From the NCBI GenBank assembly GCA_018401455.1, contig JAGYKU010000002.1:1-64000 (forward strand): a stretch of DNA of 64,000 nucleotides, in the 5' to 3' direction. Below are positions 1 to 5,107 of the stretch, in pieces. The position numbers and the translations under genes were made by a program. The DNA is from Flavobacteriales bacterium. GTDB taxonomy: Bacteria > Bacteroidota > Bacteroidia > Flavobacteriales_D > Parvicellaceae. The first letter of the stretch is position 1; the number at the start of each line of letters is the position of its first letter. The notes under the pieces are model-generated. The model worked only from the letters and a program-made list of their open reading frames with translations, was not told where the DNA came from and did no database searches.

Positions 1-43
1 CCGCTCGAATCCTTTCGAGTGGTATTTTGAACTTAGCAGAAAT
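1..43 (+). repeat. Structured repeat E0 (cut by window start)
   Basis: This is the right half of the E-element family described under findings. Stem CTCGAA (4-9) pairs perfectly with TTCGAG (14-19) around a TCCT loop, followed by the shared tail GTGGTATTTTGAACTTAGCA. The same tail recurs at 788-808 after a different stem sequence, so pairing rather than sequence is kept. The left arm would lie before the window. Confidence 0.7.
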
Positions 44-134
44 ATTTTAAAACAGGAAATATGGTATTCCTCAATCGGTAGTGGCCCCAATTAGGGGCTG
101 AGTAAATAAAAATCAACTAACGAGTTGGTATGTA

Positions 135-226
135 AGTTCTTTAAAATAGTGGCAGTAAAAGACAGAGTGAGAAACAGTGTGAGAGCGGAGGAGTTTTTTA
201 ATAAAAACGGAAATATGGTATTCCTC
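135..226 (+). repeat. Long direct repeat A, copy 1
   Basis: This block of about 92 bp recurs at 614-706 with only small differences. It begins AGTTCTTTAAAATAGTGGCA and ends in the shared 18-mer GGAAATATGGTATTCCTC, which also closes at 72 and starts another duplicated block at 460. No open reading frame with coding character covers it. Confidence 0.85.
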
Positions 227-307
227 CTCGTTCAGTCAGCAAAGAAAATCGCCAAACCATTGTAAAAGGTGGTTTTTGAATGTTTATTTCAAAGGAATAA
301 CCACCCC
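209..307 (+). repeat. Long direct repeat B, copy 1
   Basis: This block of about 100 bp starts with the 18-mer GGAAATATGGTATTCCTC and is repeated at 460-559 with one or two single-base indels. Both copies end in AAAGGAATAACCACCC. Copy 1 overlaps repeat A by the shared 18-mer, so A and B are chained through it. Confidence 0.85.
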
Positions 308-357
308 ATACAAAGCCCTTCGGGTGCTAAAGCAGTTTGTCACTTTTCTTGTGCCTG

Positions 358-445
358 CCCCCTGCTCCCGCACGAATAACTAAATAAAATTAGAAAGGCT
401 GGTGCGCGATTAGCGATAGCGTATCGCGTTCCATTTTTACATTTA
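358..445 (+). repeat. Structured repeat E1
   Basis: The left arm CCCTGCTCCCGCACGAA is followed by an A/T spacer and GGCTGGTGCGCGAT. Stem CGCGAT (405-410) pairs perfectly with ATCGCG (423-428). It belongs to the same family as E0 and E2 but has another stem sequence, and its tail is GTTCCATTTTTA rather than GTGGTATTTTGA. Confidence 0.7.
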
Positions 446-459
446 AGATAATTATACTA

Positions 460-559
460 GGAAATATGGTATTCCTTCTCGTTCAGTCAGCAAAGAAAAT
501 ACGCCAAACCATTGTAAAAGGTGGTTTTTGAATGTTTATTTTCAAAGGAATAACCACCC
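460..559 (+). repeat. Long direct repeat B, copy 2
   Basis: Second copy of the block at 209-307, differing by single-base insertions such as AAATACGCC for AAATCGCC. It begins immediately after element E1, so E1 sits exactly between the two B copies. Confidence 0.85.
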
Positions 560-562
560 GCT

Positions 563-585
563 CCGCTGGATTTGTAATCCTGCGG
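563..585 (+). repeat. REP-like hairpin CCGC-GGATT / AATCC-GCGG
   Basis: CCGC (563-566), T, GGATT (568-572), loop TGT, AATCC (576-580), T, GCGG (582-585) form a nine-pair stem with one T-T mismatch. A second copy lies at 4513-4535. Hairpins of this general form occur as dispersed REP-type sequences linked to IS200-like transposases in some bacteria. No such transposase gene is visible here. Confidence 0.6.
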
Positions 586-613
586 AACAAAACAAGAAGG
601 TAAAAAGTAAATG

Positions 614-706
614 AGTTCTTTAAAATAGTGGCAGTAAAAGACAGAGTGAGAATGAGTGTGAGAGCGGAGGAGTTTTTAAAATAAAAACGGAAATATGGTA
701 TTCCTC
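614..706 (+). repeat. Long direct repeat A, copy 2
   Basis: Second copy of 135-226, again ending in GGAAATATGGTATTCCTC (689-706). Apart from the A, B, E and hairpin repeats, bases 1-923 hold no gene that I can support. Confidence 0.85.
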
Positions 707-728
707 TTCCTCCCTCAGCAAAAAACCA

Positions 729-812
729 CCCCTGCTCACGCGCGAAGAAAAAAATAAATAAGTAGGGCTGCCGCGCGAATCTTTCGCGTGGTATTTTGAA
801 CTTAGCAGGATG
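729..812 (+). repeat. Structured repeat E2
   Basis: The most complete forward copy. The left arm CCCTGCTCACGCGCGAA is followed by an A/T spacer with AATAAATAA and by GGCTGCCGCGCGAA. Stem CGCGAA (774-779) pairs with TTCGCG (783-788) around a 3-nt loop, and the tail GTGGTATTTTGAACTTAGCA matches E0. The left arm could also pair with the right stem (CACGCG with CGCGTG), so two alternative folds are possible. Confidence 0.75.
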
Positions 813-826
813 ATTAAAAAAAATTG

Positions 827-834
827 TATTTTTG
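827..834 (+). promoter_or_regulatory. Candidate -7 box TATTTTTG
   Basis: Matches the Bacteroidota TAnnTTTG consensus. It lies just upstream of element E3 and the recombinase relic. A comparable box occupies the same place relative to element E6 (3821-3828). No clear -33 box at normal spacing was seen. Confidence 0.4.
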
Positions 835-844
835 AAGATTGAAT

Positions 845-907
845 AGAACTAAAAATAGTAAAGTCACACGAAAGGATTGGCTCTGCCGAACTTCGTTTCG
901 TGTGACA
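845..907 (-). repeat. Structured repeat E3 (inverted orientation)
   Basis: An 11-bp perfect inverted repeat, GTCACACGAAA (863-873) and TTTCGTGTGAC (896-906). Its loop carries AAAGGATTGG, the reverse complement of CCAATCCTTT in E4. The outer sequence GAACTAAAAATAGTAA resembles the left edge of E6. It lies directly upstream of the recombinase relic, where that gene's 5' part should be. Confidence 0.7.
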
Positions 908-923
908 GCGGAGGTTTCTTAGC

Positions 924-1183
924 ATGAGAGGAATGTCAATGACAGTTGACGGATTACACGCATTAATTAAATCTATGCAAGGTGCATTTGATAAGGAAAT
1001 ATCACCCAAAATTATTAGAGAAAGTGTGATTAGTTACTGGTTAAATGACCGAAAGATACCTCTGGAAGATGTTCAAATAATGGCTGGACACCGTTCCCAA
1101 GTTCAACTGAAAAACATCTTAAAACTGATAGTGAAGAACAACGTGGAATAGTTACTCAATTACATGCTGGAATATTTGGTTGA
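924..1183 (+). pseudogene. Tyrosine recombinase relic (C-terminal end)
   Basis: Only the last part of a phage-integrase-family recombinase remains. The visible stretch ends LEDVQIMAGHRS, the conserved helix with the HxxR-side motif. After base ~1100 the family pattern continues in another frame, reading STEKHLKTDSEEQRGIVTQL to a TGA at 1181-1183, so one base was gained or lost there. The residue expected to be the nucleophilic Tyr (EKY in relatives) is His here. The N-terminal two thirds are missing and element E3 lies at the break. It cannot encode an active recombinase. It may be the remnant of the enzyme that once moved this region. Confidence 0.85.
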
Positions 1184-1204
1184 GTAAATAAAAAAATAAA
1201 TTAC

Positions 1205-1235
1205 TTCGCAAAATGCGAAACATTTAGTATCTTTG
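1205..1235 (+). promoter_or_regulatory. hig promoter with palindromic operator
   Basis: TTCGC (1205-1209) and GCGAA (1215-1219) form a perfect palindrome with a 5-nt centre. A TAnnTTTG box (TATCTTTG) lies at 1228-1235. The palindrome covers the position where the -33 element should be, so a bound HigA dimer would block RNA polymerase. This is the expected autoregulation for the family but is inferred here. Confidence 0.6.
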
Positions 1236-1271
1236 TACGTAAATAAAGATGTGAAGTAGATAATAAAGTAA

Positions 1272-1592
1272 ATGAAAGTAAGGGTTATTAAGGTGGATTC
1301 CATCTGGGATTATTGTAGAAAGAATGCAAGGGCAGTACCAAGTTTTCACATCTTTTTGGAGAAGTTGAAGAACTGTGATTGGAATAATTTGAATGAAATT
1401 AAAACAGATTTTCCAAAAATGAGTTTAGTTGAAAATTGTGATAAAAATAGGATTGTGTTTGATATTGGAGGTAATAATTATAGGGTGATATGTGATTACA
1501 ACTTTTACAGGAATTGTTGTTTGTACGTTGCTTTCATTGGAACACATGCCGAATATGACAAAGTAGATGCTTGTACTGTACAGATGTACTAA
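1272..1592 (+). CDS. higB: HigB-type mRNA interferase toxin
   Basis: A 106-residue RelE/ParE-superfamily toxin of the HigB group, which in known members cleaves mRNA on the ribosome. The family signature is intact: NRIVFDIGGNNYRV at residues 59-72 and FIGTHAEYDK at 88-97. The length is typical. It is the first gene of a toxin-first pair, with the antitoxin 39 bp downstream, as is usual for hig and unlike most relBE loci. A promoter with an overlapping palindrome lies upstream. The pair is bracketed by structured repeats E3 and E4, which fits an accessory cargo. I see no inactivating lesion. Confidence 0.92.
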   Translation: MKVRVIKVDSIWDYCRKNARAVPSFHIFLEKLKNCDWNNLNEIKTDFPKMSLVENCDKNRIVFDIGGNNYRVICDYNFYRNCCLYVAFIGTHAEYDKVDACTVQMY

Positions 1593-1631
1593 TAGCAGAA
1601 ACAAATTTTAAAATCTTAAAACCAAAGTATT

Positions 1632-2036
1632 ATGAAATACTCAGAAATCGTAAATAAGAAACAATACCAAGAGTATTGTGATAGACACCTTGAATTAGGT
1701 AATATTCTTGGTGCTGGTAAAGGGAATTCCGATATGGAAGATGAATACTACATTCTTGACTTGATTATTGTAGACTATCAAAGTAAGCAGGCTAACCCTT
1801 TTGAGAAATTAACTCCCGTAGATTTATTCAAAGCCTTAATGGAAGAGCATGGATATTCTGGGTACAAATTATCAAGAGAACTGAACATTTCTCAATCAGT
1901 TATCTCTGACATCTTGAATTATAAGAGAGCATTTAGCAAAGATGTCATCAACAAACTTTCTAATCGGTTCGGTATTGGTAAAGGTTCCTTTATGAAGGAA
2001 TATGAACTGGTAGGAAAAAATGCCGAGGCTGCCTAA
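1632..2036 (+). CDS. higA: HigA-type antitoxin with HTH domain
   Basis: A 134-residue antitoxin paired with the HigB toxin upstream. Residues ~65-125 form a Cro/C1-type helix-turn-helix (YKLSRELNISQSVISDIL region). The acidic N-terminal ~60 residues are the probable toxin-binding part. As in other hig systems it should neutralise HigB in a complex and repress its own operon through the palindrome at 1205-1219. The ATG start is preceded by an A-rich leader without a clear Shine-Dalgarno sequence. Element E4 begins about 30 bp after the stop. Confidence 0.9.
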   Translation: MKYSEIVNKKQYQEYCDRHLELGNILGAGKGNSDMEDEYYILDLIIVDYQSKQANPFEKLTPVDLFKALMEEHGYSGYKLSRELNISQSVISDILNYKRAFSKDVINKLSNRFGIGKGSFMKEYELVGKNAEAA

Positions 2037-2067
2037 ACTGTAGTTAAATAAAACATTGAATAAAGAG

Positions 2068-2160
2068 CCCTCCGCTCCCGCAAGAGAAACATGAATAAAA
2101 CGGAGCGCTGCCGCGAGAAATAACATTCGGTGAAACCAATCCTTTCTCGTGGTAATTTGG
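2068..2160 (+). repeat. Structured repeat E4
   Basis: The left arm CCCTCCGCTCCCGCAAGAGAAA precedes a spacer with AATAAAA and GCTGCCGCGAGAAA. Stem CGAGAAA (2114-2120) pairs perfectly with TTTCTCG (2143-2149). The loop contains ATTCGGTGAAACCAAT, which matches the loop of E3 read in reverse. The tail GTGGTAATTTGG resembles E0 and E2. It separates higBA from the ATPase gene. Confidence 0.75.
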
Positions 2161-2267
2161 TTATAAAACACCAAACTCAATAACAGATTATATTAACATT
2201 TAGACCTAAAAAAAATATCTATTCAATAATTTATATAAAATATAAGGATTGTAATCTATTATTTATA

Positions 2268-2275
2268 TATATTTG
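2268..2275 (+). promoter_or_regulatory. -7 box TATATTTG for the ATPase gene
   Basis: Exact TAnnTTTG match, 20 bp before the ATG at 2296. A TTG lies at 2249-2251 but the spacing is shorter than ideal for a -33 box. Confidence 0.5.
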
Positions 2276-2295
2276 TGTGAATTTAAGAAAAGATT

Positions 2296-3408
2296 ATGCA
2301 ATATAGTAGAATATTAAAAAGTGAGATTTATGCAGAATGGAATTCTGGAAAAGTAATTATAATCACTGGTCCAAGGCAGGTTGGAAAGACTACTTTACTT
2401 CATCAAATTTGTAAAGAAAAAGACCCGAAGTACCTTTTTCTGAATGGCGATGATATTGAAATTCGAAACCTCCTTTTTGAAATTTCTGAAAAGGAACTCG
2501 TGAAAATAATTGGAAATAAAACTACTGTATTTATTGATGAGGCACAAAGAATTCACAATATTGGTTTAACTTCAAAGATTATTCATGACAGGTTGCCTAC
2601 AGTTAGATTGCTTTTAAGTGGTTCTTCTGCAATTGACATATCAAGCGAGATAAATGAACCATTAACAGGTAGAAAGTGGGAATATCATTTATATCCTATT
2701 TCATGGTCAGAGTTTAAAGATAAAAATGGCTATTTAGAAGCTAAAAAAGATTTGAAAGAGAGACTTATTTATGGAATGTATCCTGAAGTGCTTACCAGCC
2801 CAGATAATCAAAGGAGAGTTTTAACAGAGCTAACTGGAAGTTATCTATATAAAGATATTTTGGAATATGGAGGAATTAGAAAGCCGGAAGTTTTAGAAAA
2901 ACTTTTGGTGAGCCTTGCCTTACAAATTGGATCTGAGGTCAACTACAATGAACTAGCAAATAGTTTAATGATTGATAGAAACACTATCGAGAATTACATT
3001 ATACTTTTAGAAAAAGCATTTGTAATATTTAGATTAAACCCATTGAGTAGAAATGTACGTAACGAAATAAATACAGGAAGAAAAATTTACTTTTTCGATA
3101 ATGGAATTCGAAATGCAATAATAAGCGACTTTAAACCTATTGAATTAAGAATAGATAAAGGATATTTGTGGGAAAATTTTATAATTAGCGAAAGAATCAA
3201 AAAACATAACTATCAAAATTGGTATGGTAAGCATTACTTTTGGAGAACTTATCAGCAACAAGAAATTGACTTAATTGAGGAATGCAATGGAGCGTTTTAT
3301 GCTTTTGAATTCAAATATAATCCAAAGAAAAATCAAACTTTTTCTAAAAACATTTATAAAAACTACGAGCCAATTGAAACAGAAATTATCAATTCAAGAA
3401 AATTTTGA
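2296..3408 (+). CDS. AAA ATPase with DUF4143 domain
   Basis: A 370-residue member of the AAA_14/DUF4143 group, common in bacterial accessory regions and of unsettled function. The Walker A GPRQVGKT is at residues 25-32 and the Walker B VFIDE at 78-82. The C-terminal part has the DUF4143 pattern IYFFDNGIRN ... ENFI ... YFWRTYQQQEIDLIE, a PD-(D/E)xK-like core. The frame stops at TGA 3406-3408 right after INSRKF. One base fewer in the AGAAAATTTT run would give NFDDFLA and stop at 3422, which looks more like the family end. So the gene may have a small 3' frameshift, with little effect on the domains. It lies between elements E4 and E5. Confidence 0.88.
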   Translation: MQYSRILKSEIYAEWNSGKVIIITGPRQVGKTTLLHQICKEKDPKYLFLNGDDIEIRNLLFEISEKELVKIIGNKTTVFIDEAQRIHNIGLTSKIIHDRLPTVRLLLSGSSAIDISSEINEPLTGRKWEYHLYPISWSEFKDKNGYLEAKKDLKERLIYGMYPEVLTSPDNQRRVLTELTGSYLYKDILEYGGIRKPEVLEKLLVSLALQIGSEVNYNELANSLMIDRNTIENYIILLEKAFVIFRLNPLSRNVRNEINTGRKIYFFDNGIRNAIISDFKPIELRIDKGYLWENFIISERIKKHNYQNWYGKHYFWRTYQQQEIDLIEECNGAFYAFEFKYNPKKNQTFSKNIYKNYEPIETEIINSRKF

Positions 3409-3464
3409 TGATTTTTTAGCGTAAAAACAATGATAATTAATTTTAGAGAAGTACTTTTTTTAAT

Positions 3465-3621
3465 TTACCTTGCTCTGTAAAACTTTATCGTTCCTTTGGT
3501 CTTTGTGCTCAAATCCAAATCTAGTTTTTGAACTTTTCTAATGTTGTGATTTTGATGTGCAATTACAATTTCATTTTTGTTTTTCACTTCATAAACAATG
3601 GCATAATGTTGTGGAAAGTGA
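3465..3621 (-). pseudogene. Truncated duplicate of the 4590-5045 gene
   Basis: The last ~50 codons (HYAIVYEVKNKNEIVIAHQN to the terminal FYRAR) match the C-terminal end of the intact minus-strand gene at 4590-5045 almost residue for residue, with one Asn codon lost and an L-for-E change. The match ends at about 3621 (GTGAC), exactly where structured repeat E5 begins. The frame upstream is element sequence, not protein. The upstream Cys-containing part of the enzyme is missing, so no function is expected. It is evidence that E5 is linked to a rearrangement. Confidence 0.85.
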
Positions 3622-3770
3622 CCCTTGCTCATACGAAGAAAATTAAAATAAGAAGTTCGCTGCCGCTCGAATCTCCCTGCTCCCGCTCGAAAATTAAAAT
3701 AAAGTTCGCTGGTGCTCAGAGCAAAGTTCGACAAAAGTCAATCACTTTCCGAGTTCCATTCTAATTTTTA
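3622..3770 (+). repeat. Structured repeat E5 (compound)
   Basis: Two partial units in tandem. The first has CCCTTGCTCATACGAAGAAAA and GTTCGCTGCCGCTCGAAT. The second has CCCTGCTCCCGCTCGAAAA and GTTCGCTGGTGCTC, followed by a CTTTCCGAGTTCCATT tail like that of E1. Both share the AATTAAAATAA spacer. It looks like one element inserted into or recombined with another, at the breakpoint of the truncated duplicate at 3465-3621. Confidence 0.65.
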
Positions 3771-3820
3771 GCAAAGATTTTTACCCAAAAACTTAAAAAC
3801 AAAAAATAAAAGTTGTAATT

Positions 3821-3828
3821 TAGATTTG
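3821..3828 (+). promoter_or_regulatory. Candidate -7 box TAGATTTG
   Basis: TAnnTTTG match upstream of element E6 and the secreted-protein gene at 3902. Transcription from here would place the E6 hairpin in the 5' leader. Confidence 0.45.
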
Positions 3829-3833
3829 TGAAA

Positions 3834-3893
3834 GAAACTGAAATAGTAATACCAAGCGATGGTTCCGAAACTTCGGAAGCGCGGGAGCATTGG
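3834..3893 (-). repeat. Structured repeat E6 (inverted orientation)
   Basis: TTCCGAA (3863-3869) and TTCGGAA (3872-3878) form a 7-bp perfect stem with a 2-nt loop, followed by GCGCGGGAGC, the reverse complement of the GCTCCCGC left arm of forward copies. The outer edge GAAACTGAAATAGTAA resembles that of E3. It lies just before the ATG at 3902. Confidence 0.65.
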
Positions 3894-3901
3894 GAAGTAA
3901 A

Positions 3902-4495
3902 ATGAGATTGTTAGCTTTCATAATACTAATTACAACCTCATTAACATGTGTGATTTCACAAGTTGAATGGTATATGTATCCGCTTAATTGTGAGTTAAAT
4001 GATTCTTCTCACTACAAGGTTGTAGAAAAATTTGAGTTAGGCTCTTTGAATGAATCCTATTATTTTCTGGAGTTTAAAACAAAGTATAACGAAAAAGTAG
4101 GTTATTTACTCTCCAAAGTTAATGGAAGTTTAGTATGTGGTTTTTATAACTCAACTCCCGACACAGTAGTTTATAACAATCGACTTCACGTATTTATAAA
4201 CCCCTATCCTGATGTTTACATTCATACTTATTGTATTGATGAAACTCTCCATCCCTGTCCAATTGGCCAAAAAGGTTACACTACAGTGAGAGACTCTGTA
4301 TTTCTTTCAACTTGTGTTAAAAACGACTCAATAGGAACTTTAGTGTATTTTTTTGAAAACAATTGTTTACATATGGAAGGACATTTTTCTGATAATAAGA
4401 AAGAAGGTGTTTGGAAGATTTATAACAACTCAGGAAGACTTGTTGAAACAGAAGTTTACTCTGATGACGTTTTGATTAAAAAAAACAGGGAGTAG
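3902..4495 (+). CDS. Secreted protein with MORN-2-like C-terminus
   Basis: A 197-residue protein starting MRLLAFIILITTSLTCVISQ, a signal peptide. This start is preferred over the in-frame ATG 12 bp upstream. The body is not recognised; it is Cys-containing (CNLEL-type spacing is absent) and rich in Tyr and Asn. Residues ~160-190 (HFSDNKKEGVWKIYNNSGRL) match the MORN-2/YwqK-type repeat, a short beta-hairpin motif common in secreted Bacteroidota proteins. Only one or two repeats are present. The leader before it contains element E6. The REP-like hairpin follows at 4513. Function unknown. Confidence 0.7.
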   Translation: MRLLAFIILITTSLTCVISQVEWYMYPLNCELNDSSHYKVVEKFELGSLNESYYFLEFKTKYNEKVGYLLSKVNGSLVCGFYNSTPDTVVYNNRLHVFINPYPDVYIHTYCIDETLHPCPIGQKGYTTVRDSVFLSTCVKNDSIGTLVYFFENNCLHMEGHFSDNKKEGVWKIYNNSGRLVETEVYSDDVLIKKNRE

Positions 4496-4512
4496 TTATG
4501 CCCCCTCCCGCT

Positions 4513-4535
4513 CCGCTGGATTTGCAATACTGCGG
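4513..4535 (+). repeat. REP-like hairpin, second copy
   Basis: CCGC, T, GGATT, TGC, AATAC, T, GCGG: the same layout as 563-585 with one extra mismatch in the stem. It is followed at ~4550-4570 by GTTTTTAAAATAAAAACGGA, which also occurs at ~673-692 within direct repeat A. So pieces of the left-end repeats recur here. Confidence 0.55.
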
Positions 4536-4589
4536 CAGTTAAAAGCAGGTTTTTAAAATAAAAACGGAAATAAATTTAAAGTAGTTTGT

Positions 4590-5045
4590 TTACCTCGCTC
4601 TGTAAAACTTTATCGTTCCTTTGGTCTTTGTGCTCAAATCCAATTCTAGTTTCTGAACTTTTCTAATGTTGTTGTGATTTTGATGTGCAATTACAATTTC
4701 ATTTTTGTTTTTCACTTCATATACAATGGCATAATGTTGCGGGAAAGTGACGTATCCTCCTTCGAATTCAAATTTTACATTCTCAAAAGAGATAATGTCA
4801 CCAGGTTTTAAATCTGTTTTTGGATACTTTATTTCATCACCAAAATCAAAAGGTGCTTTCCAATCTGCTTTGGCTTCATTGAGAGCAAAAGCAACCAAAT
4901 CCCAACATTCGCCTCGATCTATTTTTTTGTTGAGGTTTTTATTGACGAAAGCAATAATGCTTTTGTTTTTGTCTTGAGCTATCGTTGGCGTGCTGTGAAA
5001 AATTCCAAAGAGAAATATTGTAAGTGTGAATGCGAAGAATTTCAT
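4590..5045 (-). CDS. Exported cysteine-protease-fold protein (BBC1/AIM3-like)
   Basis: A 151-residue protein with signal peptide MKFFAFTLTIFLFGIFHS. The body has the pattern of the papain-like BBC1/AIM3 fold seen in Bacteroidota hypothetical proteins: GECWDLVAFALNEA with the candidate nucleophile Cys, DLKPGDIISFE, then QHYAIVYEV with a candidate His, and AHQNHN. This resembles NlpC/P60-type hydrolases, so a peptide or cell-wall substrate is possible but unproven. An in-frame ATG at 5072 exists. A -7 box (TATTTTTG on this strand, 5070-5077) overlaps it, which favours the 5045 start. A truncated duplicate lies at 3465-3621. Confidence 0.75.
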   Translation of the reverse strand: MKFFAFTLTIFLFGIFHSTPTIAQDKNKSIIAFVNKNLNKKIDRGECWDLVAFALNEAKADWKAPFDFGDEIKYPKTDLKPGDIISFENVKFEFEGGYVTFPQHYAIVYEVKNKNEIVIAHQNHNNIRKVQKLELDLSTKTKGTIKFYRAR

Positions 5046-5107
5046 AGTTTTTATTTTTTTAAATCTTATCAAAAATAGTGCTAATAATTTGGGTTTCTAT
5101 AATTAAC

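Follow-up and report, generated by a model that had tools for sequence, protein, structure and literature searches.

Hairpin–leader repeats associated with small AT-rich genes in a Flavobacteriales genome

The start of a contig from a Flavobacteriales (Parvicellaceae) bacterium carries a family of palindromic repeats, here designated E, whose stems differ from copy to copy. This raises the question of what kind of element they represent. The 64,000-nucleotide stretch that was analysed (the window) was examined together with the rest of the genome and with outside collections. At roughly even confidence, the E repeats are considered intergenic modules belonging to a lineage-specific system of small-gene cassettes and not a new kind of RNA.

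Anatomy of the repeats in the window

The sequence-only reading had listed seven copies, and the repeat sequences that it quoted were all found where it had placed them. These copies are not independent, however: E2+E3 and E5b+E6 are composites, E0 is truncated, and E5 comprises two partial units (3622–3671 and 3672–3770), an arrangement that occurs again at C1:33260. The general plan of the module runs from a 5' arm through hairpin 1, an AT-rich leader and an optional hairpin 2 to a right end. In composite elements the leader spans about 75–100 nt, and the right end approximates the inverted 5' arm. E2+E3 (about 729–914) and E5b+E6 (3672–3893) are each one composite element, because the same order of parts recurs at C1:32483–32733 and C81:16.9k; E3 is the composite's hairpin 2, rather than hairpin 1 copied in inverse. 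Two sequence types are distinguished, namely type A (GCCGC...GTGGT followed by TATTTTGAAC; E0, E2, E4) and type B (GGTGC...GTTCC followed by ATTCTAG; E1, E5b). Individual features are collected in Table 1.

Table 1. E repeat parts and intervening genes, in window coordinates.
Feature	Position	Strand	Basis or remark
E0: hairpin 1 type A, CCGCTCGAA/TTCGAGTGG, and leader start	1..43	+	5' side lost at contig end (C64 base 1)
E1 5' arm (CCCCTGCTCCCGCACGAA) and AT-rich spacer	358..397	+	
E1 hairpin 1 type B, GGTGCGCGAT...ATCGCGTTCC	398..440	+	Fold, covariation, pattern scan
E2 5' arm (CCCCTGCTCACGC) and AT-rich spacer	729..766	+	
E2 hairpin 1 type A, GCTG-CCGCGCGAA...TTCGCGTGG	767..792	+	Fold, covariation, pattern scan
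Leader type A, TATTTTGAACTTAGCAGGATGATTA8TTGTATTTTTGAAGATTGAATAGAACTAAAAATAGTAAA	793..862	+	
E3: hairpin 2 of E2+E3 composite, GTCACACGAAA/TTTCGTGTGAC, loop GGATTGGCTCTGCCGAACTTCG	863..906	+	Fold
E2+E3 right end, AGCGGAGG, inverted-repeat-like partner of 5' arm	907..914	+	
Tyrosine recombinase, frameshifted C-terminal remnant	924..1151	+	73% identical to a congener's 295-aa recombinase
HigB-type toxin gene, between E3 and E4	1272..1592	+	PF09907, 9.9e-23
HigA-type antitoxin gene (HTH)	1632..2036	+	PF01381
E4: 5' arm and hairpin 1 type A, CCGCGAGAAA/TTTCTCGTGG	2068..2160; hairpin 2108–2153	+	Fold, covariation, pattern scan
AAA_14/DUF4143 ATPase gene, flanked by E4 and E5	2296..3408	+	
E5a: partial unit (TGCTCATACGAAG...GCTGCCGCTCGAATC)	3622..3671	+	
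E5b: 5' arm and degenerate hairpin 1 type B, without stable fold	3672..3758	+	
Leader type B (ATTCTAATTTTTAGCAAAGATTTTTACC...AAAAGTTGTAATTTAGATTTGTG...)	3759..3855	+	89% to C107 copy over 3753–3855
E6: hairpin 2/right end of E5b+E6 composite, TTCCGAA/TTCGGAA then GCGCGGGAGCATTGG	3856..3893	+	
Orphan small gene directly 3' of E6, cassette-like cargo	3902..4495	+	

Positions 1–730 of the window contain no genes and form a mosaic of E and two other palindromic families, which resembles repeat nesting.

Fold and covariation of the hairpin

A scan pattern was composed of CTG[GC][CT]GC, a 5-bp stem, a loop of at most 40 and G-T-[TG]-[CG]-[CT]. It fitted exactly three sites in the 64 kb (E1 399–432, E2 768–792 and E4 2108–2153), against a mean chance expectation of 0.03 per window in 30 dinucleotide shuffles. 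As single-stranded DNA, five copies folded better than shuffles, with z scores of -5.6 (E0), -2.9 (E1), -3.5 (E2), -5.9 (E3) and -2.8 (E4); E5b, at -0.17, was no better than shuffles. Elsewhere in the genome, the stem of the C81 copy is broken (z +0.39), and at C1:32483 and C1:72278 a second palindrome (TTCCGA..TCGGAA) replaces part of one arm. With E5b and these three copies broken or interrupted, the earlier statement that each copy keeps perfect pairing proved too strong.

The compensatory nature of the stem changes was upheld. Across 14 hairpins of the same genome, the covariation score reached 0.382 compared with 0.162 +/- 0.029 in shuffles; none of 500 shuffles scored as high, none reached the observed percent paired, and the score far exceeded all slid controls. 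The arms were aligned by hand for this test, as MAFFT misaligns the variable arms, and the two-sided change dividing the type A and type B subfamilies may be a single event, a caveat on the covariation. A G.T pair is near-invariant in the stem (13 of 14 hairpins), G.U intermediates occur (GCGAT/ATTGC), and the 13 hairpins with a readable foot carry CTG (11) or CTT (2). It is proposed that only the hairpin base (CTG, the conserved G.T pair and the flanks) would be read by sequence and that the remainder need merely pair, so that the stem would be free to change. Small palindromes inserted into the arms have additionally reshaped copies.

Distribution of the module and its link to small genes

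About 20 further copies are dispersed over more than ten contigs of the same 3.06-Mb genome, a single draft that is 82% complete and offers a small set of arrays. The hairpin–leader module is 75–92% identical between copies. Arrays of co-oriented small genes are headed by these repeats, which the sequence-only reading had overlooked. For instance, C141:19.6–23.3k holds five leaders, all on one strand and mostly preceding short same-strand ORFs (101, 123 and 103 aa); the array is bounded by a membrane-protein gene and by a His-rich leader peptide that precedes hisG. Two leaders at C96 are each followed by an orphan ORF, and further leader-plus-ORF cases lie at window position 3902, C1:32483, C108 and C130.

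Copies are co-oriented within all seven multi-copy clusters (C64, C141, C96, C81, C107 and two on C1; 20 copies), for which the chance under random orientation is 2^-13. In a scripted count, 12 of 19 leaders are followed by an ORF of 60 aa or more on the same strand, and the C73 leader is a thirteenth that enters a same-strand gene, here cut by the locus end. Two leaders meet an opposite-strand gene, one adjoining an IS-type transposase and one at an array end; four run into no gene, and 13 of the 15 informative leaders are thus same-strand. The conserved block begins at the hairpin and stops just short of the ORF. Orphan ORFs have a G+C content of 21–28%, compared with 34–38% in neighbouring genes, several cargo ORFs are frameshifted, and no Pfam family was found above cut-off among the orphan genes tested. 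Modules also occur as scattered single copies, some of them next to ordinary genes, such as the TspO-like gene at C13.

In the proposed cassette system, the hairpin would act as punctuation closing the preceding cassette, and the AT-rich leader would probably supply a promoter and 5' untranslated region that drives the next gene. Hairpin 1 may end or insulate transcription of one cassette, serve as a folded recombination site for cassettes, or both, while hairpin 2 would be an optional hairpin of the leader. The cargo would consist mostly of short AT-rich orphan genes; other copies adjoin a toxin–antitoxin pair, an ATPase gene or an Rhs tip. In the type A leader at 793–862, TATTTTTG resembles a Bacteroidota -7 box and the -33 TTTG is absent at the right spacing, making this a promoter candidate only. 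Against the cassette reading counts that no recombinase adjoins any of the arrays; the isolated copies beside ordinary genes, the gene-free mosaic at 1–730, the missing -33 element, the frameshifted cargo ORFs, the leaderless hairpin of a congener and the small number of arrays from one draft genome weigh in the same direction.

Outside this genome, the earlier remark that no named element matches was borne out: Rfam and the phage set gave no match, and the plasmid set gave one 31-base match, judged to be at chance level. The exact pattern was confined to this genome among 399 genomes of the order. A looser pattern gave 118 stretches in a genome-contig collection, of which six labelled Bacteroidetes were examined and judged chance (coding-like sequence in GC-richer DNA); viral contigs gave none, or chance matches in GC-rich DNA. 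The sole relative found is one hairpin without leader in a congener. In an empty-site comparison at hisG, the neighbour gene differs in the congener.

Alternative readings and related systems

A possible alternative, held tentatively, is a REP/MITE-like palindromic mobile repeat moved in trans by a Y1 HUH or other transposase. Such a non-autonomous element would spread intergenically and nest in palindromes, its link to small genes being secondary. The dispersal of the copies, the palindromes nested within arms and the congener's bare hairpin are consistent with it, as are inverted ends that beat 97% of shuffles in three of six composites. The stem variation had been called unusual for a simple MITE, which needs qualifying: in GTAG-tagged REP families, stems with alternative complementary residues are the norm (PMC3733652), and the compensatory stem alone is therefore not new. 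Like GTAG/CGTC-tagged REPs with their Y1 transposases, E comprises small extragenic hairpins with compensatory subfamilies, a short conserved foot and mosaic clusters (PMC3733652, PMC6006769). However, its foot is CTG/GCTG instead of GTAG, GTGG or CGTC, copies are few, and the long one-sided conserved leader (~100 nt), co-orientation and AT-rich orphan cargo are unexpected for REPs. The 82%-complete genome encodes three Y1 transposase genes, but these are flanked by other palindromes and none by E hairpins, the C108 gene having a leader fragment on its 3' side; their motifs (YINNQ/YIKNQ) resemble the class without reported REPs, and no group-2 RAYT was found. Like bacterial MITEs (PMC10969869), E elements are non-coding and dispersed, measure about 190–290 bp and have ends with some inverted similarity. 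The inversion of the ends is only partial, orientation follows the downstream gene, and no target-site duplication was seen by eye at three composites (window 725–925, C1:32483 and C1:72278). Should this alternative hold, E would be another REP/MITE family, of use mainly to illustrate how strongly stems can covary in DNA repeats.

It is unlikely that hairpin 1 is an attC-like site, read mainly by structure, at which a tyrosine-recombinase integrase shuffles leader–gene–hairpin cassettes. The array layout, a structure better conserved than sequence and the recombinase remnant in the window argue for it; integron cassette arrays and CALIN likewise have small genes in a common orientation, with a structured repeat of variable sequence after each gene (PMC9024848). 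Classical integrons are rare in Bacteroidota (PMC9024848). Of 11 sites tested, none has a RYYYAAC...GTTRRRY pair on one strand or the other, conserved sequence extends ~100 nt beyond the hairpin, unlike attC, and E cassettes, unlike those of integrons, seem to carry their own leader. A 377-aa XerA/integron-integrase-like protein at C86 passes one cut-off (NF040815, 237 bits; cut-off 220) but falls under that for integron integrases (TIGR02249, 211.9 versus 265 bits), and the 82%-complete genome yielded no curated integron integrase. As no E copies lie in its vicinity, the C86 integrase was ruled out as an integron platform. Besides the remnant in the window, three integrase genes lie elsewhere in the genome; the C86 and C85 regions are without an E copy. 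Rather doubtful, too, is the reading of hairpin 1 as the single-strand-folded recombination site of a non-integron Bacteroidota cassette system, in which shape and the CTG/G.T foot would be recognised, each cassette would carry a leader and stems would drift as long as they pair.

Also improbable is a transcribed structured RNA, a terminator plus 5'-leader regulator multiplied through ordinary duplication of intergenic regions: the RNA fold of the composite at 725–925 beats shuffles (z -3.5), the leader sits directly upstream of genes and the stem has wobble pairs, but no Rfam match exceeds the gathering score, a U-run after the hairpin is absent, and the G.T pair would suit a DNA hairpin too.

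Among known systems, E resembles the recombinase-associated acquired interbacterial defence (rAID) arrays of Bacteroidales (PMC12247911) and, loosely, integrons. Both rAID and E show co-oriented arrays of short low-G+C genes (<41% for rAID; here 21–28%) with conserved intergenic motifs in a Bacteroidota host, and an Rhs-type tip adjoins the C73 copy. Unlike rAID arrays, E arrays are not headed by a tyrosine recombinase, the window having only the frameshifted remnant; E modules are scattered singly too, and their ordered hairpin anatomy is known from the present analysis alone. By analogy only, E cargo might confer immunity to T6SS toxins. If the cassette reading is true, E would combine a structure-read site with a promoter of its own, by which small genes for defence or immunity could be shuffled independently of integrons, and hairpin plus leader would provide a search handle for such arrays in Bacteroidota.

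The remnant at 924–1151 was also considered as the E recombinase. In the congener, a recombinase of the same type belongs to a separate element and is immediately followed by HigBA, so the remnant is more simply explained as cargo that arrived with HigBA.

Anatomy and stem covariation of the E elements

The repeats listed in the sequence-only reading are all present in the window, which spans bases 1-64000 of contig C64 in a 3.06-Mb draft genome (82% complete, 151 contigs). By our own reading of its gene content, e.g., a PorP/SprF-like protein on contig C1, this genome is Bacteroidota-like. The draft state conceals copies, as E elements stand at the start of two contigs (C64 and C107). Scanning the window for a hairpin with a CTG foot that pairs, a 5-bp stem and a loop of at most 40 returned three places (E1, E2 and E4), against an average of 0.03 in 30 dinucleotide shuffles; these three are therefore not chance occurrences. 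A full element has a 5' arm (CCCCTGCTCCCGC), which an AT-rich spacer separates from hairpin 1. Behind hairpin 1 come a conserved leader, AT-rich and about 75-100 nt long, optionally a second hairpin (hairpin 2), and finally a right end (AGCGGAGG or GCGGGAGCA) that repeats part of the 5' arm in inverted form. Type A has the foot GCCGC...GTGGT and the leader TATTTTGAACTTAGC...TTGTATTTTTG, and type B has GGTGC...GTTCC and ATTCTAGTATTTAGC...GTTGTAATTTAG. Seven separate copies had been counted, but two pairs of them each form one composite.

Features in the window and sites of the D/Q family
Feature	Position	Remark
E0	1-43	truncated by contig end
E1	358-440	ends shortly after hairpin 1
E2+E3	729-792, 863-906	composite
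E4	2068-2160	ends shortly after hairpin 1
E5a	3622-3671	
E5b+E6	3672-3758, 3856-3893	composite
Tyrosine recombinase remnant	924-1151	frameshifted; full-length kin 73% identical in congener G028
Cargo of E units		HigBA pair; AAA_14/DUF4143 ATPase; orphan gene
D/Q sites	55, 209, 460, 689 and 556-672; C1:73.1k; C99:22.0k; C1:31.3k	

Covariation statistics, suggested earlier as a check, were obtained by aligning the arms of 14 hairpins by position with loops omitted. Paired cells reached 84.9% (69.9 +/- 2.4 in shuffles) and the covariation score 0.382 (0.162 +/- 0.029), with 0/500 shuffles as high for either, in a set of mutually related sequences where a two-sided foot change may represent a single event. 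Slid versions of the alignment scored at most 0.178. Two-sided changes occur at five pairs, the series GCGAT/ATCGC, GCGAT/ATTGC, GCAAT/ATTGC has a G.U pair as intermediate, and one pair is G.T in 13/14 hairpins. E is a real, covarying repeat family. The perfect pairing ascribed to each copy holds for most rather than all, since three copies (C81, C1:32483 and C1:72278) have broken or interrupted hairpins and E5b folds no better than shuffles.

Gene context and distribution

The important context falls outside window 1-3893, the span of the sequence-only reading, in arrays on contigs C141 and C96. At 19.6-23.3 kb of C141, five successive leaders lie on one strand, most of them followed by a short ORF. 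A membrane-protein gene bounds them on one side and a His-rich leader peptide, which precedes hisG, on the other; a low-scoring IS3/IS481-like transposase gene lies within the array. C96 carries two leader-ORF units. Genome-wide, all multi-copy E clusters (7/7) are internally co-oriented. A scripted count of ORFs of at least 60 aa downstream of 19 leaders gave 12 same-strand, 3 opposite-strand and 4 without; the C73 leader, followed by a 515-aa same-strand frame with a Rhs-core-like start, was scored as opposite because the locus ends there, and the corrected tally is 13 same and 2 opposite. Co-orientation and placement before genes are, with order and covariation, established for the E module. 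The orphan ORFs have 21-28% G+C (neighbours 34-38%), and no Pfam family scored above cut-off for them.

The C73 locus (L208, from 1352) places a type-B leader immediately upstream of its open frame, an orphan Rhs tip whose start falls within an Rhs-like core. In the C141 locus (L206), the short ORF MNQNFTHHHAHHPFVQTSR at about 4462-4521 (-) and then a terminator-like hairpin lie upstream of hisG, forming a histidine attenuation leader. The 3' end of a CHAP/NlpC-like gene (4590-5072, -) is duplicated at window 3464-3622 and 4589-4751 (154/163 identical); E5 starts at the end of the displaced copy, and a block of ~970 bp (E5/E6, orphan gene, D fragment) lies between the two. On C81 (L210, about 3922-4001), an E element is directly followed by 80 bp that match, at 86% identity, the 3' end of L206 gene 8304-9086, which adjoins the C141 array; this hints that flanking gene ends may be carried along with E elements.

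Query C1:32483-32733 matched 24 stretches of the source genome and had no match in three congeners. A type-B query gave 21 matches in the source genome; beyond it, a single congener yielded one weak match, and four further genomes of the family yielded marginal ones. Of 160 genomes of the order, two have the type-B hairpin GGTGCGCGAT...ATCGCGTTCC, namely the source genome and, as one bare copy, G028; the complete module was found in the source genome only.

Probable cassette arrays and alternative readings

The most probable reading, of moderate confidence, is that the E module provides the leader and hairpin of small-gene cassette arrays. It would serve as intergenic punctuation: hairpin 1 would close one cassette, the leader would express the next cassette's gene, and the set would be shuffled as whole units. 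Only the hairpin foot (CTG, G.T pair) would be read by sequence, so that the stem may vary. Transcription, recombination at the hairpin and movement of the module are putative. The confidences of the readings overlap, because recombination-site and regulatory-RNA readings could be parts of the cassette reading. Three features define Bacteroidales rAIDs (PMC12247911), namely a tyrosine recombinase, conserved motifs between the genes, and a shared orientation of these genes, which have 100-300 codons; E arrays share co-oriented small genes and conserved intergenic motifs but are without the recombinase.

The main rival, a REP/MITE-like repeat, is possible, if somewhat unlikely. REP families often comprise subfamilies whose stems differ but remain complementary (PMC3733652), so the stem variation that had been considered unusual is known in this class. 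E hairpins, however, have no GTAG/GTGG foot, and no REP-associated transposase flanked by them was found among the three Y1 transposase genes of the draft genome, which have other palindromes at their flanks. By their YINNQ/YIKNQ motifs these genes resemble Y1 subclass 1.2, for which no REPs are reported (PMC6006769); despite this similarity, short palindromes of their own, CTCCTACGGAG, CCCCAGCGGGG and CCAACGGTTTAAACCGTTGG, border loci L002, L003 and L004.

The tyrosine recombinase remnant is probably not the E recombinase. Its G028 kin is part of an element that encodes two recombinases and a ~755-aa protein, and has HigBA behind it; the matching remnant-HigBA order in the window suggests that the remnant arrived with the toxin-antitoxin pair. 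Canonical integron features were not found: none of 11 E sites has an R-box pair, and no protein of the draft genome passes the cut-off for an integron integrase.

Other repeats and mobile elements

A conserved three-gene block in G028 (L221 7109-12019, L222 3648-7838) encodes a ~755-760-aa HTH-ending protein and two tandem tyrosine recombinases, with HigBA directly behind in one of two cases; it resembles a recombinase-pair mobile element. A second mosaic family, D, reads CCGCTCCGCTGGATTTGTAATCC...AGCGGAGG and continues with GGAAATATGGTATTCC; hairpins Q come next. These have a conserved loop, TTTCAAAGGA, and differing stems (GGTGGTT/AACCACC, CCAGTAGG/CCTACTGG, GTTGCAC../..GTGCAAC); D/Q, like E, shows variable stems, here with a conserved loop. 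Furthermore, a palindrome, CCTGCCTCCCGTCACCATGTCTGCCGACAGGTAGAGGCAGG, is dispersed over L168 (2136-2180), C13, C105, C107, C64:101625, C2, C118 and C130, and is at times nested within hairpin 2 of E elements.
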